Assembly: GCA_017556805.1 (NCBI GenBank)
Contig: JAFYMC010000028.1
Coordinates: 186,001-250,000 of the forward strand
Length of the DNA stretch: 64,000 nt
Reading direction: 5' to 3'
From: Lachnospiraceae bacterium
GTDB lineage: Bacteria > Bacillota > Clostridia > Lachnospirales > Lachnospiraceae
Below, piece after piece: positions 7,292-40,927 of the stretch. The position numbers and the translations under genes were made by a program. Below the pieces are notes generated by a model that was given only the letters and a program-made list of their open reading frames with translations, made no database searches and was not told the DNA's origin. Position 1 is the stretch's first letter, and every line of letters begins with the position of its first letter.

Positions 7292-7312
7292 TTAATAATA
7301 ACATTATTTGTC

Positions 7313-7347
7313 AAAAAAAGCAAGACTTTTTTCACTGTCTTGCTTTT
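7313..7347 (-). terminator. Terminator after the MATE/Nudix/GNAT operon
   Basis: Stem AAAAGCAAGAC / GTCTTGCTTTT around an A-rich loop, followed on the - strand by seven T. Confidence 0.8.
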
Positions 7348-7358
7348 GTACTTTTTCT

Positions 7359-8264
7359 TTACAGTCTTTTCTTTGCCATCATATAATAAACACATATTTT
7401 ATACCCTGCATACCCATACATATGATCCAGTCCCGTATAAGTATATCCAAGGTATGCTTCCTTCATCCCCGCATCCTTTAAATACTTTGTCCCGATGGTA
7501 ACCATATTGACGCCGATATGCCGTCCCCGATGGCTTGGTTTTACCGTAGTACAGCCTACGCTTCCGAGCCCCTCTCCTTCCGTTTCCAGATTCACAAATA
7601 AGGTTCCTACGACTTCCTCTCCGTCTGTAGCAATCAGTACCTTCGGATTCTGCTTCCCCTCTCCCCGGTATAGTTCCTCGTTTTTATAATACTGTGTAAA
7701 CTCCCCGTACGCCGCATCGGTACATGCATACACCTTCTCTGCATCCTCCTCCGTGGCAAACCGGTAGCAAATCCCCTCTACCGTATCTCCTACGTTATAC
7801 TCTTCCGTTACAAACTCCGACAACGGAAACCGCATGTCAAAACAGTTGCAGTCCCAGGAATGGGTATATCCCCGCTTCTCAAAAAACTCGCTTGCCACAG
7901 TATCCAATCCCTCATACAACCGCTCATTCACCGCATCCGTATACCGTTTGCTTGTAGGTACTCCCGGCATCAGGTAATCATATCCGGCCCCTACGGTTAC
8001 CTCTTCAAAACCGGCATCCCTGACTGCTTGTTCTGCTTTAGAAAGCAGCTCCAATCCGATGCCTTTGTTTCGGTATTCCTGATCTACACAGAGCATGAGA
8101 ATCGTATTGTTATGTACAACGGCAGAACCGATTAAAACATTCTGTCCGTTGCGTTTTTCAATCACTTTACACTCTTTATTTTCTAAAATATTCCGTACTG
8201 TGGCGTCTTCCCGCACAATAAAAGGGAAGTTCCGGCGGAACAAATCGATCCATTCACTTATCAT
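7359..8264 (-). CDS. Tandem GNAT acetyltransferase
   Basis: 301 residues with two GNAT folds. The first acetyl-CoA motif is YRNKGIGLELL near residues 82-92; the second is HRGRHIGVNMV near residue 245. Tandem GNAT proteins transfer acetyl groups to small molecules or proteins; the substrate here is unknown. It is the last gene of a likely three-gene operon with a MATE exporter and a Nudix hydrolase (gap 32 bases to the Nudix gene), followed by a strong terminator. The pairing with a MATE exporter could suggest detoxification, which is inference. Confidence 0.85.
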   Translation of the reverse strand: MISEWIDLFRRNFPFIVREDATVRNILENKECKVIEKRNGQNVLIGSAVVHNNTILMLCVDQEYRNKGIGLELLSKAEQAVRDAGFEEVTVGAGYDYLMPGVPTSKRYTDAVNERLYEGLDTVASEFFEKRGYTHSWDCNCFDMRFPLSEFVTEEYNVGDTVEGICYRFATEEDAEKVYACTDAAYGEFTQYYKNEELYRGEGKQNPKVLIATDGEEVVGTLFVNLETEGEGLGSVGCTTVKPSHRGRHIGVNMVTIGTKYLKDAGMKEAYLGYTYTGLDHMYGYAGYKICVYYMMAKKRL

Positions 8265-26192: not shown

Positions 26193-26597
26193 TCATACCT
26201 TCGTATTATCAGGCTGATGCCTTTGAATATAGGAAATACAATTTTTCAAATGGTCCTCGTCCTTAATCGGCTCCCATGATTTTCCTCCCCATAGTCCTTT
26301 TTCTACTTGTTCAACTAAAATTGGAAATTCTTTTCTAATCAATCTTGATGAAGTTCCAAATAACATTTGTCCTACCTGTGATGGAAGCAACTCCGTTCTT
26401 ACCAAAACGTGAACATGATTATATGCCACTGTACTTTCAACTAATTCTACTCCTTCTTTACGCTCAATTACTTCCTCAATAATTTCTTTTAGCTTCGTAC
26501 GTATTTCTTCACTATAAAACATGTTTTTCCTATATTTTGTTGCACCAATAAAATGATAATAATTTAGATATGCTCTATCCTCTGATAGCCGTTTCAA
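26193..26597 (-). mobile_element. tnpA: IS200/IS605-type transposase TnpA (Y1 HUH)
   Basis: 134 residues. The metal-binding HUH motif is NHVHVLV, and GTSSRLIRKEFP and SYIQRHQ follow; the last Tyr-containing segment is the likely nucleophile site. This single-strand transposase moves IS200-like elements. The start is the TTG at 26597, eight bases after AAAGGAGG; an upstream in-frame TTG at 26660 lacks a good site. There is no TnpB partner. Element ends were not recognised, although the terminator hairpin could be part of the right end. Confidence 0.85.
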
Positions 26598-31632: not shown

Positions 31633-31718
31633 CGGAGACGGAGGGATTCGAACCCTCGTGCCCTTGCAGGCAAACTGATTTCGAGTCAGTCTCGTTACGG
31701 CCTCTTCGATACGTCTCC
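31633..31718 (-). tRNA. tRNA-Ser (CGA)
   Basis: 86 nt. Acceptor stem GGAGACG pairs with CGTCTCC, with discriminator G. The anticodon loop CTCGAAA sits between ACTGA and TCAGT and gives anticodon CGA (reads UCG). A long variable arm and the T-loop GTTCGAATC are present. CCA is not encoded. It lies 39 bases after holA and is followed by a terminator; its 3' end may be an integration site. Confidence 0.93.
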
Positions 31719-37053: not shown

Positions 37054-37896
37054 CTACTCCTCACAAAACAATTTTCGGACAAGACCATCCAACCCTTTTG
37101 TATTCAATGCCTTCTTCCCGGTCTCATATGTCAGAAACAGATTAACACCTAAGTATATTCCATTTTTCTCATATGTACCCAACTTATATAGTGCTGTATC
37201 TGCATACTCCGGGTCATCCATCATTCCAAAATGCTCTAAATATACTTCCTCTCGCATAGGCATCCTAAGAATTGTAAAGTCCGGATACACCTTCACTCCA
37301 CCAGCCAACATAAGAGGATATTCATACCGGTACGGAATTCCCAAGGAATACAACTTATCCGCAATAATCTTTTCCGATTTTGAACGAACCCGTTCTCCTC
37401 TTTCTGTCAGTATTATATTCTCATCCTCTTCAAACGTTTTCCCTTTATATTCCACTGCCTGCCATTGTTTTACAAACTCCTCATCTGATATTACCACCGG
37501 AGTAATTAATTCTTTTCGATAAGAATTTGTTTCTCGATAAAGATTCTTTAAACATGTTTTATCATACACCTCCCTGAAACACTCAATAGCTCGGATTCGC
37601 TCCTCCGCTCTTTTTACAACAAGCTTATCATAATCACGTTGAGCCAACCTTTTTACAAGATTCAACTCACTTTTCCTCATATATCTCCCATTCCCGTTAT
37701 GATTAGATTCTTCGCCGGCCTCTCTCTCCGCTTTCCGATTCGTTTCGTGCTCTTTATAATAATACTCTACTCCATACTGCTTTCGTGTAATTCGCAATCT
37801 TCCTAGCGGTGCCGTTTCCAGTCTTTTTCTTGCATTTTCCACAATTTTCTTAAGTTGCATTAATTCTTCCTCTAAGATTCTCTCTGTTGTTTTCAT
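37054..37896 (-). CDS. PD-(D/E)XK nuclease-like protein
   Basis: 280 residues. The N-terminal half is charged and helical. The C-terminal half has a restriction-endonuclease-like pattern: Glu175 (RSKSEKIIADKL), RYEYPL, Asp206 in YPDFTIL and Glu221-His222 in YLEHFGMMD. This arrangement is shared by a group of stand-alone nuclease-like proteins in gut Clostridia; activity is not known. GGAGG is five bases from the ATG. The upstream 475 bases hold an array of 53-bp hairpin repeats on the same strand. Confidence 0.65.
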   Translation of the reverse strand: MKTTERILEEELMQLKKIVENARKRLETAPLGRLRITRKQYGVEYYYKEHETNRKAEREAGEESNHNGNGRYMRKSELNLVKRLAQRDYDKLVVKRAEERIRAIECFREVYDKTCLKNLYRETNSYRKELITPVVISDEEFVKQWQAVEYKGKTFEEDENIILTERGERVRSKSEKIIADKLYSLGIPYRYEYPLMLAGGVKVYPDFTILRMPMREEVYLEHFGMMDDPEYADTALYKLGTYEKNGIYLGVNLFLTYETGKKALNTKGLDGLVRKLFCEE

Positions 37897-37948
37897 AAAA
37901 ACCTCCTGTTTATTCTTTCCATTCCACCTGTTTGCCAGTTTCTCCGAT

Positions 37949-38371
37949 TTAGTCGGGATGTTTTTCTTTTTCTGCCCCGACTAATTGCTGATTTTCTCCT
38001 TCTAGTCGGTTGACTTCTCGATTATTCTCCCGACTAATAACTTATCGCTCGTATTTCGTCGGGGCATTTTTCAATTCCGTTTCCGACTATTCATGCACTT
38101 TCCAAATTTAGTAGGGAGACGCTCTAATTCTATCCCCTACCAAATATTCTATTTCCTTATTTAGTCGGGTCACGCTCTCATTTTGTCCCCTACCAAATAT
38201 TCTATTTCCTTATTTAGTCGGGTCACGCGCTCATTTTGTCCCCTACCAAGCATTCTTTTTCCTTATTTAGGCGAGGCACGCTCTCATTTTGACCCTACCG
38301 AGCATTCTTTTTCTCTATTTAGTCGGAGCCTCCTCAAAATCGTTCCCCGACCAATCCCACAATTCCTCTTT
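37949..38371. repeat. Array of eight to nine 53-bp hairpin repeats
   Basis: Units start at 37949, 38002, 38055, 38108, 38161, 38214, 38267, 38319 and a partial at 38371, which is inside the comEC stop region. The period is 53 bases (52 for the last two). Each unit begins near TTAGTCGGG and carries a partly complementary CCCGACTAA or CCCCTACC about 18-20 bases later. The stem is perfect over 9 bp in the first unit, 7 bp in the second, weaker in others. Units starting at 38161 and 38214 are almost identical; others have diverged. Not CRISPR: whole units repeat and there are no unique spacers. Confidence 0.85.
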
Positions 38372-40927
38372 TCAGTCGGACTTACGCCACCGCTCCACTT
38401 GTATCCAACCATTCCTCCCCACCTTCACCGTCACACATCCGTTCTCATCCGTCCGGTACACCCTGCTGTTTGCCCCGTAGAGCGTTTCTAACGTCTCGGT
38501 GTGAGGATGGCCGTACCGATTATCCTTTCCGCAGGATATGACAGAAATAGGAGGCTGTAACGCAGAGATAAACTCTTCCGAGGAGGCGGTATAGGACCCG
38601 TGGTGGGAAACCTTCAATACTTCCACGGACGACAACAGGCTTCCGGATTCTTTTTGTTCCTCCAACAACCGCAGTTCTCCCTCCTTCTCCATATCTCCGG
38701 TCAACAATAAGTCAAACGCTCCATAGGAAGCCAACAACACCATTGAGGCCGCATTTTTACTATCGTAACTAACTCCGGCTTCCGGTGCCAGGCAGGACAA
38801 CATCAGTTTCTTTCCTACCCACACGCGGTCACCTGCCTTCATGAAACTGACTTCCACCTGCTTCTCTTGCGCCAGCCTAAGCAGTTCTACATATGCTTCA
38901 TCCGCCGCTTCCGCTCGCACACCTTCTGTTGCTTCATCATTCGTTCCTCCCGCATGTTCCGCATCGGTTCCATCCCACTCCGGCAAAACAAGCCTCTTTA
39001 TCACCGGTGTTCCGGTATACCCGAGTACACACTCCCGATAGCCCGAATACTCCGGCATCTCCGCAAGAATCTCCCGCACACCACTCATATGGTCACTGTC
39101 GGTGTGGCTGACAAACGCACAATCAATTACGCGGATTCCTTGAGACTTCAGATATGGAATCAGTCGCTTTTCTCCGACATTTTGCACACTCGTACTGCCG
39201 CCGTCCACCAAAAGAACCGCACCCCCTTGCTCCCGCAACACAATTCCGTCTCCTTGACCTACATCAAGAAAGGCCGCTTCAAAATGCGTCAAGGATATAG
39301 GCAATAAGCACAACGGCAGAAACAGCAGTAAAAGAAATACTACCGTTTGACGTTCCGTTCTCCTCCCTTTTGCGTACCACCTATACACTCCTGCCGCCAA
39401 CAAAGCATAATACACACAAACCTGCCACCCCTCCGGTTTCCCGACAAGCAAAAGCGAGCCCGGCAGTTGTTCTACCCATCGGCACAGTTCCTCATAAATC
39501 CATAAGATTCCCCGGGCTCCTCCCGCAAAAAAGAAACCGAACCACGGTACAAACAAGCCGCATACTCCTGACAACAACCCACACAACAATAAAATCGTCA
39601 TCAGCGGTACAACCACCGGATTCAAAAAGAATCCATAGGTGGGATACTCAAAAAAGTGAACTACGGTAAATGGAAATGTAACTGCCTGAATGGCAAGACC
39701 GAAGAGAAACATACTTTTACATTTTTCCGTTATGTACTCCCTCACCCGGCTCCGCTTGCTGTATGTCACTTCTTCCTCCCGCTTCGTTCCCCGGAGCAGT
39801 ACCGCCAGTACCGACGCCCCATAAGCAGCGGCGAAGGACAGTTGAAAGGACGCTGTATAAAGTGCGCCGGGACTTCCGCATAAAATCACAATCACACTGA
39901 CCGACATCGCAGATAGCGTATCATAGGTCCTCCCCAGAATTGTAGCCACTAAAAGCAATATAAACATAATTACCGCTCGCTTCGTGGAGATTCCCGCTTC
40001 CACAAAGGTTCCGTACAAGATTACTCCTCCACACGCCACCGGGATGGCCCCGTTCCGTCCCAGAATCGTCTTTCGCAAAAGAGTATATAAGGCAGTCCCG
40101 ATTAAAGATACATGAAGTCCAGAAATCGCCAAAATATGCGAAATTCCACCGTGCCGATACAGTTCCTTTGTCTCCTCCGACAAAAGGGCACGTTCCCCCA
40201 GAAGCATAGAGGAAATTACTCCGGCCCCTTCTTCTCCCAGATAAGTCACATAACGATTCAATAATTGATTTTTTGCTTGAAATAATGCCTGATGCAGGCG
40301 ATGATAGGTAACAGAACGAATCCGAACGGTTTTCCCGTAAACAGCTCCCGTAATCCCCTGTGAAAAATAAAACTCCCTTGCATCAAATCCGCCCGGATTC
40401 GACGCCTCCTCAAATACACTCCCGCTTCCGTATACAAAAATTTCCTGCCCGTACTTTAATTCTCCGTTTTCCGTAGCAATATCGTCTAAATAGACCAATA
40501 GCGTTCCTACCGGCCGGTACTCGCCTCCCTCATACGGCATTGCCACCGCATCCGAAAGCTCCAGCCGGACACCGTCATCCGTCCACCGGATATGGGAAAC
40601 CGTGCCTTCCGCCAATACCTCTCGCCCGGCCTCCAGACACTCCCGAAAGGCGCTTGCGTCTCTTTCGTATGTCAGCATAGCTCCGGTCATCACGCATCGG
40701 CCCAACAGTAAAAACACCGGCGCCAACAACAATAGCTTATCCGCCACGGACACCCGCCGTCGTCCCCTATGAAGACTTCGTAAAAACCATATGACTCCCC
40801 AAAACAATCCGACAGCTGCCGTAACCGCAATCCATCCGGAGTACTTTGCCAGAAAAATTCCCAGCACAAAAACGGCGGCACAAAGTACCGCCGGTCTTTT
40901 TAATATGATAACCCGCTTCCCTACCAT
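38372..40927 (-). CDS. comEC: ComEC/Rec2-type DNA uptake protein
   Basis: Membrane channel for single-stranded DNA uptake. 851 residues: N-terminal membrane helices and OB-like region, a competence domain with ISHILAISGLHVSLIG near residue 250, more membrane helices, then a C-terminal metallo-beta-lactamase domain with FLDVGQGDGIVL, VSHTDSDHMSG and KVSHHGSYTAS. Its stop lies in the first partial unit of the 53-bp repeats. Last gene of the comEA operon (gap 12 bases to gerM-like gene). Confidence 0.9.
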   Translation of the reverse strand: MVGKRVIILKRPAVLCAAVFVLGIFLAKYSGWIAVTAAVGLFWGVIWFLRSLHRGRRRVSVADKLLLLAPVFLLLGRCVMTGAMLTYERDASAFRECLEAGREVLAEGTVSHIRWTDDGVRLELSDAVAMPYEGGEYRPVGTLLVYLDDIATENGELKYGQEIFVYGSGSVFEEASNPGGFDAREFYFSQGITGAVYGKTVRIRSVTYHRLHQALFQAKNQLLNRYVTYLGEEGAGVISSMLLGERALLSEETKELYRHGGISHILAISGLHVSLIGTALYTLLRKTILGRNGAIPVACGGVILYGTFVEAGISTKRAVIMFILLLVATILGRTYDTLSAMSVSVIVILCGSPGALYTASFQLSFAAAYGASVLAVLLRGTKREEEVTYSKRSRVREYITEKCKSMFLFGLAIQAVTFPFTVVHFFEYPTYGFFLNPVVVPLMTILLLCGLLSGVCGLFVPWFGFFFAGGARGILWIYEELCRWVEQLPGSLLLVGKPEGWQVCVYYALLAAGVYRWYAKGRRTERQTVVFLLLLFLPLCLLPISLTHFEAAFLDVGQGDGIVLREQGGAVLLVDGGSTSVQNVGEKRLIPYLKSQGIRVIDCAFVSHTDSDHMSGVREILAEMPEYSGYRECVLGYTGTPVIKRLVLPEWDGTDAEHAGGTNDEATEGVRAEAADEAYVELLRLAQEKQVEVSFMKAGDRVWVGKKLMLSCLAPEAGVSYDSKNAASMVLLASYGAFDLLLTGDMEKEGELRLLEEQKESGSLLSSVEVLKVSHHGSYTASSEEFISALQPPISVISCGKDNRYGHPHTETLETLYGANSRVYRTDENGCVTVKVGRNGWIQVERWRKSD

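Follow-up and report, generated by a model that had tools for sequence, protein, structure and literature searches.

Whole-turn arrays of inverted-repeat units adjoin a family of PD-(D/E)XK-like nuclease genes in Lachnospiraceae

Results

Gene order and repeat array at the comEC locus

The window (the whole stretch of DNA analysed, 64,000 nucleotides) carries on its minus strand, in the order of transcription, comEC, an array of inverted-repeat units and a gene encoding a 280-residue protein. The features of the locus are as follows:

38372..40927, minus strand: comEC, the upstream neighbour of the array (open reading frame with matches to the Competence, DUF4131 and Lactamase_B domains)
37934..38375, minus strand: array of inverted-repeat units, eight full units and a terminal half unit at the comEC end, with a 53-bp period (one of 52)
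38368..38375, minus strand: terminal half unit, CCGACTGA, whose TGA is the comEC stop codon
38304..38356, minus strand: unit 1 in transcription order, arms TTGGTCGGGG / CTCCGACTAA
38252..38303, minus strand: unit 2, 52 bp, with degenerate arms
38199..38251, minus strand: unit 3, left arm GTAGGG and right arm CCCGAC (one mismatch)
38146..38198, minus strand: unit 4, left arm GTAGGG and right arm CCCGAC (one mismatch)
38093..38145, minus strand: unit 5, the sole unit with both arms altered, GTAGGG / CCCTAC
38040..38092, minus strand: unit 6
37987..38039, minus strand: unit 7
37934..37986, minus strand: unit 8, TTAGTCGGG / CCCGACTAA, the sole unit whose 9-nt arms form a perfect inverted repeat
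37902..37907, minus strand: AGGAGG, read from the letters, five bases before the ATG of the 280-residue gene and presumably ribosome-binding-site-like
37054..37896, minus strand: gene for the 280-residue PD-(D/E)XK-like nuclease, downstream of the array (open reading frame and conserved residues)

A preliminary description of this DNA had reported eight units and a partial one at a 53-base period with one of 52, and three methods agree with it. Tandem Repeats Finder (TRF) gives a period of 53 at 38099-38326; self-identity at lag 53 is 0.655 over 37949-38375, compared to 0.403 for the best of 500 shuffles at any lag from 5 to 199; and arm chaining finds 17 arms in eight full units with periods of 53, 52, 53, 53, 53, 53 and 53. 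The retention of both arms that had been described for units 1 to 3 was too generous a reading, as the arms of unit 8 (37949-37957 and 37976-37984) are the only perfect 9-nt pair found in the array. The matched change of GTAGGG with CCCTAC, likewise described, holds for unit 5 and not for units 3 and 4, which have CCCGAC, or for the degenerate pair of unit 2. Each of the six reading frames contains 3 to 14 stops over 37900-38371, and Rfam has no match in the array region at gathering scores. The window also contains a tRNA gene at 31633-31718 on the minus strand.

The gene downstream of the array

The window protein matches no Pfam family, and no solved chain matches it under E 0.1 (the best PDB chain, at E 0.15, is unrelated). 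Members of its family are present in 129 of 397 genomes drawn from Lachnospiraceae. All 43 aligned homologues match the PADLOC profile PDC-S68, 38 match PDC-S69 and 37 match HEAT_CxxC_PDDEXK (E up to 0.1); the PADLOC PD-DEXK profile is matched by 37 members, and PHROG profiles for endonucleases and for Holliday junction resolvases by 17 and 11 of the 43, respectively, with weak E-values. For most members, the PADLOC and PHROG matches are of PD-(D/E)XK or endonuclease types. The nuclease domain is what the family has in common with the candidate defence proteins PDC-S68, PDC-S69 and HEAT_CxxC_PDDEXK; the PDC-S68 profiles, however, are about 1200 positions long, and the match, including that of the window protein, lies at their C-terminal end.

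The invariant columns of the 43 aligned sequences include S172, K173, E175, D206, F207, H222 and G224, with E221 nearly invariant, and the window protein has all 15 of the conserved residues checked, E175, D206, E221 and H222 among them. We take the conserved residues to be catalytic, in a PD-(D/E)XK-like core with E-H replacing ExK. By its conserved acidic residues and core homology, the family is predicted to belong with the PD-(D/E)XK nuclease superfamily.

The surroundings of the family were tallied from 122 of 189 neighbouring open reading frames, at loci up to L212. Ribosomal S9 (five) and L13 (four) lead the best 25 of 148 Pfam families. Among the best 25 of 169 PADLOC profiles listed, none matches more than three members, and most are helicase- or ATPase-bearing profiles with two members each. 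We interpret both tallies as ordinary chromosomal surroundings rather than defence islands. At six loci (L170, L172, L175, L191, L195 and L214), rpsI (S9) precedes the array and the nuclease gene, and rplM (L13) precedes rpsI where tested. No relative of the window protein was found in the viral contigs searched. Three of 50,697 phage records match, the best of them a 4.2-kb record with no tandem repeat by TRF and with remaining genes that look bacterial, as do seven of 72,556 plasmid records, each over 23-51% of the query, of which the annotated ones are ATPases or helicases.

Arrays stand upstream of homologues in many genera

The arrays are associated with this gene family. A tandem array was detected within 1300 bp upstream at 49 of 77 homologue loci and downstream at 10 of 90, compared to 4 of 68 control tiles from 17 control regions in genomes of the survey. 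Of the control matches, all retained in the count, one looks like a coding repeat (L243, period 42) and another may be a real solo array (L237, period 54). When the full upstream sequence was taken, 57 of 86 loci had an array, or 56 of 85 once L027 was removed. These numbers derive from 95 fetched loci, of which two duplicates (L193 and L203) and seven with less than 150 bp upstream were omitted; L027, the same locus as L022, was dropped from the 49/77, 10/90 and 56/85 counts and from the period statistics filtered by stops, but retained in 57/86 and in the survey counts of arms nearer the consensus, of mispairs and of purines. The remaining 29 of 85 homologues have no array at the detection threshold, including all nine distant ones (L015, L016, L017, L023, L025, L026, L028, L029 and L030). 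Detection required a lag identity of 0.6 over 80 bp, so that degenerate arrays, such as that of L151 seen by eye, are missed. An open frame runs through 18 of the 56 arrays, and some of these may thus be coding.

A search beside homologues of the 280-residue protein, which the preliminary description had proposed, found upstream arrays at many homologues in other genera, with unrelated arms. Homologues away from comEC carry arms such as TACTGCGCA/TGCGCAGTA, GCATGC palindromes, GTCCGTGC/GCACGGAC and TTTTGATACGT/ACGTGTCAAAA. The order of comEC, array and homologue recurs in G006 (with other arms), G245, G089 and G224, with comEC in these relatives recognised by motifs and by reading of translations. 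In G007, a single degenerate unit precedes the comEC-linked nuclease gene, yet many solo arrays occur elsewhere in the genome.

The suggestion that the repeat and the nuclease-like gene form one unit is supported by the 49 of 77 loci. A plain minisatellite would account for the tandem arrangement and for a copy number of units that varies between species; it is highly improbable, given that the same architecture in unrelated sequences precedes homologues of one gene in many genera, and was rejected on gene association, conserved context and geometry.

Arms are complementary within each array and turn over between arrays

The arms differ from array to array (TTAGTCGGG, TTAGTTGGG, TTCGTTGGG, TTTGTTGGT and others), and the complement of each is found within its own array. 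Of 46 consensus units (those of the 56 arrays that have a full-length protein and a period of 52 or more), 34 contain inverted 6-mers, with 8.7 expected, and 21 contain inverted 7-mers, with 2.1 expected. The spacers drift faster than the arms: of the 34 arrays with clear arms and no fewer than 2.5 copies, 31 have arms that lie nearer the consensus than their spacers do.

Covariation of the two arms was seen between arrays. In an alignment of 45 units from 15 arrays, which is free of chance and reverse-strand matches (two of its loci, L074 and L076, may be two ends of one array), 87.1% of cells are paired, compared to 78.6% after shuffling (0 of 500 shuffles), and both sides are changed in 43 cells, compared to 16.6 (0 of 500). 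Two other alignments, A2 and A4, include some chance and reverse-strand matches. When right arms were swapped between arrays, pairing dropped, and 0 of 1000 swaps reached the observed value. Within one array, an arm did not pair significantly better with its own partner than with the arms of other units, in hairpin A (233 of 2000; 95 of 2000 with Watson-Crick pairs only) or in hairpin B (536 and 643 of 2000, respectively), and 12 units from two arrays of the window genome show no covariation beyond shuffles (84.0% of cells paired vs 84.4%). Because pairing falls between arrays and not within them, the arm type is a property of the array or genome rather than of the unit. The compensatory change that had been suspected from the window array is present between arrays, but was not significant within the arrays of the window genome or within single arrays. 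The comparison between arrays supports selection on the inverted repeat, or some upkeep of it.

Arm turnover is fast. An inverted 5-mer is common to 10 of 26 pairs of nucleases more than 60% identical, to 6 of 58 pairs at 50-60% and to 26 of 951 pairs under 50%; 16 of the 26 closest pairs share none. The global correlation of arms with proteins, with imperfect arm picking, is not significant (rho 0.04; 229 of 1000).

Constant spacer lengths and whole-turn periods

The spacing of the arms is strict. In 28 comEC-type arrays, the step from left to right arm is 26 in 138 of 145 cases, that from right to left arm is 27 in 144 of 161, and the period is 53 in 122 of 140, under a chaining procedure that mildly favours these three values. 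Among neighbouring unit pairs, 92 of 112 are of equal length with 22% of positions differing, and the other 20 differ by 21 net bases. Of the 28 chains, some of which are cut by contig ends, 21 open with a right arm and 23 close with a left arm; the unit is therefore probably right arm, spacer, left arm.

The 56 linked arrays have periods of 52-54 (29 arrays), 62-64 (14), 72-75 (9) and 83 bp (1), plus single arrays at 38, 39 and 70, such that 53 of the 56 fall in whole-turn classes. Steps of 10.5 bp are the expectation for B-DNA; we know of no reason for such steps in RNA. With one array per protein cluster (clusters below 42% identity, periods of at least 52 only, L197 and L209 excluded; n = 21), R is 0.847 at 10.5 bp with a phase of 6 degrees, a value reached in 0 of 20,000 uniform draws, and in 2 of 20,000 when the 5-turn class is left out (n = 13). 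Clustered arrays with stops in all six frames give 0 of 20,000 (n = 16), or 32 of 20,000 without the 5-turn class (n = 10); when inverted 6-mers are required as well, the values are 3 of 20,000 (n = 12) and, under this strictest filter and again without the 5-turn class, 201 of 20,000 (n = 8), the relatedness of the loci limiting all of these statistics. On the protein tree (79 of 91 proteins, those shorter than 240 or longer than 330 residues having been dropped), the period class changes at least 10 times (46 labelled rows, with the 70-bp array counted as seven turns). Periods of whole turns place all units of an array on the same face of the helix.

These properties bear on whether the array might be a selfish palindromic satellite without function, in which unequal recombination homogenises the units, template-switch (quasi-palindrome) correction keeps the arms complementary and the nuclease is a passenger or a mover. 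The scatter of positions, the solo copies and composite elements described below, and the pairing of arms no better with their own partners than with those of other units are all in keeping with such a satellite. It would leave unexplained why whole-turn periods were reached in several lineages, why spacer length is held while spacer sequence drifts and why arms are conserved more than spacers; moreover, the position beside comEC is retained in G000, G006, G007 (one unit), G089, G224 and G245. We regard it as quite improbable.

RNA-like features

The preliminary description compared the locus to type III systems. In these toxin-antitoxin systems (ToxIN, CptIN), tandem repeats lie upstream of a nuclease gene on one strand, and repeat length and sequence vary by locus (PMC8860590). 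The tandem repeats here are likewise upstream of the gene and on its strand. A corresponding reading is that the array is transcribed into a hairpin-repeat RNA, which would be an inhibitor or a processing substrate of the nuclease-like protein. The covariation of arms between arrays would be expected of such an RNA. Folded as RNA, the gene strand of the window array outscores all of 100 shuffles (z -4.7), and the opposite strand has z -3.3. Sense-strand mispairs in comEC-type arrays are more often G-U than A-C (77 vs 40 in hairpin A; 88 vs 61 in hairpin B), and the sense strand is purine-rich in 45 of 55 arrays, one locus being counted twice. By eye, comEC-type arrays have their purine-rich strand in the direction of the upstream gene at nearly all loci that could be read, L110 being an exception. 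The G-U excess and the purine-rich sense strand would suit an RNA role or a mutation bias linked to transcription.

Against this reading, DNA fold parameters yield a similar value for the window array (z -4.2), and the G-U excess of the survey arrays (39 vs 24 A-C) is spread over 13 arrays for, 10 against and 11 ties. A consensus scan of the window locus found no terminator-like site on the minus strand at 37897-37935, between the array and the start codon, where type III loci have a short terminator. Units with held spacer lengths and periods quantised in turns of B-DNA, and solo arrays with no family gene in their fetched flanks, also set these arrays apart from type III repeats. The window protein matched no solved chain under E 0.1, and no ToxN/AbiQ-type relation was found in the libraries searched (Pfam, PDB chains, PADLOC and PHROG). 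The type III-like layout is thus not supported, and an RNA role of this kind is unlikely.

Solo arrays and composite elements

Arrays also occur away from nuclease genes. An array is here termed solo when the fetched flanks, about 1-2 kb, contain no gene of the nuclease family. Three nuclease-linked arm types, which were not chosen at random (that of G051 was picked for its long array), served as probes; each led to solo arrays in the same genomes that match the linked array in arms and period. The window genome (G000) has two further arrays of the comEC type (G000:C37 and G000:C18), the former between nudix-like and methionine gamma-lyase-like genes, as named from translations. In G051, of another genus, the linked array (L177) is accompanied by a solo array on another contig with the same arms, with six exact pattern matches 53 bp apart and none for the control. 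Solo arrays adjoin many kinds of genes, and the occurrence of same-arm copies as solo intergenic arrays indicates that arrays spread within genomes. The preliminary description had counted a repeat found widely at unrelated sites without the gene among the signs of a plain minisatellite. Such copies were indeed found, to the letter of that sign; they do not imply a plain minisatellite, because in the three cases tested they share arms and period with the linked array.

Many contigs end in or beside arrays (for example G007:C34, C62, C59, C17 and C8), where short-read assemblies break, and the numbers of arrays given here are therefore minimum values. In G007, arrays were located at 13 places, several of them at contig ends, so that some may be two halves of a single array. 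With a covariance model built on 12 units, 5 of 41 genomes gave matches at E 0.01, including the window genome and G022, where the lone weak match (L085) was dropped as chance; a second model, built on 45 units, gave matches in 4 of 10 genus genomes. A two-unit pattern found 20 stretches. All lie in metagenome-assembled genomes (MAGs) with Lachnospiraceae, Eubacterium or Clostridiales in the title, and one MAG (RGIG4203) accounts for 10; most titles of the matching MAGs name ruminant gut samples, and the pattern was absent from the viral contigs searched. In a Clostridiales MAG (JAFZZM010000077.1; L119, about 7300-7400), two TTAGTCGGG/CCCGACTAA hairpins lie 53 bp apart with opposite arm order and no purine bias; they are perhaps unrelated, and were excluded from the counts.

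The presence of arrays follows that of the matching nuclease. An orthologue of the comEC type (E under 1e-90) was found in 4 of 397 genomes, and model-R2 arrays in 4 of these 4 compared to 2 of the other 393, in a survey that scored only 14 candidates per genome. Among genus genomes, comEC-type arrays occur in 3 of 3 with the matching nuclease and in 1 of 7 without it; arrays of a second type, with a 6-turn period, occur in 5 of 5 and 1 of 5, respectively, with nuclease-linked arrays counted in. The 6-turn pattern (TCATGGNA..TNCCATGA) matches seven units in G000, 31 in G006, 43 in G007, one each in G001, G004 and G009 and none in the other four genomes, and a reversed control pattern matches one each in G000 and G003. 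Nuclease paralogues of the 6-turn type were found in G000 (broken), G004, G006, G007 and G009. In the window genome, this second paralogue is split in two pieces (L272 1721-2526, G000:C19), and the 6-turn array beside it (2567-2981) retains regular arms and spacing. G000, G006 and G007 thus each have two array types that differ in arms and period, each with its own nuclease paralogue, that of G000 being the broken one.

Six composite elements of the 6-turn type have 12 arms each. Their spacings agree within 2 bp outside a central step, which is 76, 76, 75, 76, 77 and 65, and identity between elements is 0.23-0.49 over spacers of equal length; these elements are geometry without sequence. Eight solo loci (L256, L257, L258, L259, L261, L264, L265 and L266) consist of two palindrome triplets around a longer centre (step 75-77), with an additional half arm in L258. 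Some occupy corresponding places in two species, L256 and L264 by an L1-like ribosomal gene and L258 and L266 by a sigma-factor-like gene (gene names by reading).

The same geometry would be seen if the arrays served an unrelated host DNA-binding protein as operators or architectural sites, with the nuclease merely its commonest regulated neighbour, and solo arrays near many kinds of genes would fit that explanation. We consider it unlikely, because arrays accompany this one gene family far more often than they occur in controls, nucleases more than 60% identical more often have an arm type in common and each of the two array types in G000, G006 and G007 has its own paralogue. Since close nucleases share arm types more often and coexisting types each have their own paralogue, the nuclease is the most economical candidate for the protein that binds the arms.

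Discussion

Comparison with known systems

The nearest analogue in organisation is the REP/RAYT system (PMC2817692, PMC8266576). There, the enzyme gene reportedly adjoins its own palindromes, enzyme and palindromes coevolve, solo and composite copies are intergenic and the abundance of palindromes is tied to the presence of the enzyme (PMC2817692). Enzyme presence correlates with cognate palindromes here too (the 4 of 4 vs 2 of 393 above). The enzyme is, however, a PD-(D/E)XK-like nuclease here and a Y1 HuH transposase there; the arrays here are long and tandem, with whole-turn periods, and lie mostly on one side of the gene; and, by eye, the consensus units do not share a constant GTAG tag. 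Two-sided flanking as in REP/RAYT was not found, the upstream and downstream counts, of tandem arrays only, being 49 of 77 and 10 of 90. The Y1 transposase domain PF01797 was found in 2 of 10 genus genomes (G000 and G008) and not in G007, the richest in arrays, the genomes being incomplete. Membership of REP/RAYT was rejected because of the absence of a cognate Y1 transposase pattern and of two-sided flanking. The only Y1 (IS200-like) transposase domain found in the window genome lies in the window at 26223-26570 on the minus strand (G000:C29:212223-212570), more than 11 kb from the array.

Of the 28 comEC-type chains, 21 begin with an ACCCAAC-type arm and 23 end with a GTTGGGT-type arm, a likeness to integron attC sites, whose cores RYYYAAC / GTTRRRY we take such arms to fit. 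The arms of other lineages, in contrast, do not fit these cores. No integron integrase scored over the curated cut-off in any of 10 genus genomes, and attC sites were rejected on this negative search; sub-threshold tyrosine recombinase matches occur in 10 of 10 genus genomes and in 14 of 14 control genomes.

Lengths that change in steps of about one helical turn have been reported for the internal eliminated sequences of Paramecium, where they are explained by proteins that come together on the same side of the helix (PMC3464196). By analogy, that work on helical phase suggests a cooperative assembly on the array (PMC3464196). The Paramecium sequences occur singly and are cut out by a complex that includes a domesticated piggyBac transposase, whereas those described here are tandem arrays.

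A DNA platform for the adjacent nuclease

We think it somewhat probable that the inverted half-sites of the array form a platform, acting as DNA, that belongs to the adjacent PD-(D/E)XK-like nuclease and has also spread as solo copies. Most units are palindromes with two arms of about 6-12 bp, in which the arm sequence is lineage-specific and the spacer sequence largely free, with spacer length held. We infer from the sharing of arm types and the paired paralogues that the nuclease, or a protein tied to it, most likely binds the arms as dimers, which could then assemble cooperatively along the array on one face of the DNA. Such an assembly before the enzyme's own gene might regulate that gene or retain the enzyme; it may also serve to store a dangerous enzyme, or to cut and copy arrays. 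The arrays may perhaps have spread by repair after cutting by the nuclease.

A bolder proposal, which is possible but rather doubtful, is that of an undescribed class of system. A PD-(D/E)XK-like nuclease would both write and read the addresses that it occupies, helically phased palindromic arrays to which it would be recruited cooperatively along one face of the DNA. The array before the gene would act as a DNA sponge that checks the enzyme, a DNA counterpart of the type III antitoxin RNA, with copies seeded intergenically, and several pairs with differing arms and whole-turn periods could coexist in one genome.

No description of the pairing of a nuclease with such an array was found in the open-licence PMC literature searched, and on this literature and four profile libraries the pairing is rated new. 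A family of nucleases for which Pfam has no entry, present in about a third of the genomes searched of Lachnospiraceae, a bacterial family common in the gut, would thereby gain a cognate DNA element, and intergenic repeats that otherwise pass as anonymous satellites would be explained. The whole-turn geometry offers a sharp handle on how DNA positions or restrains a nuclease; if the nuclease does bind the arms, the natural arm types would show how one fold changes its DNA specificity.
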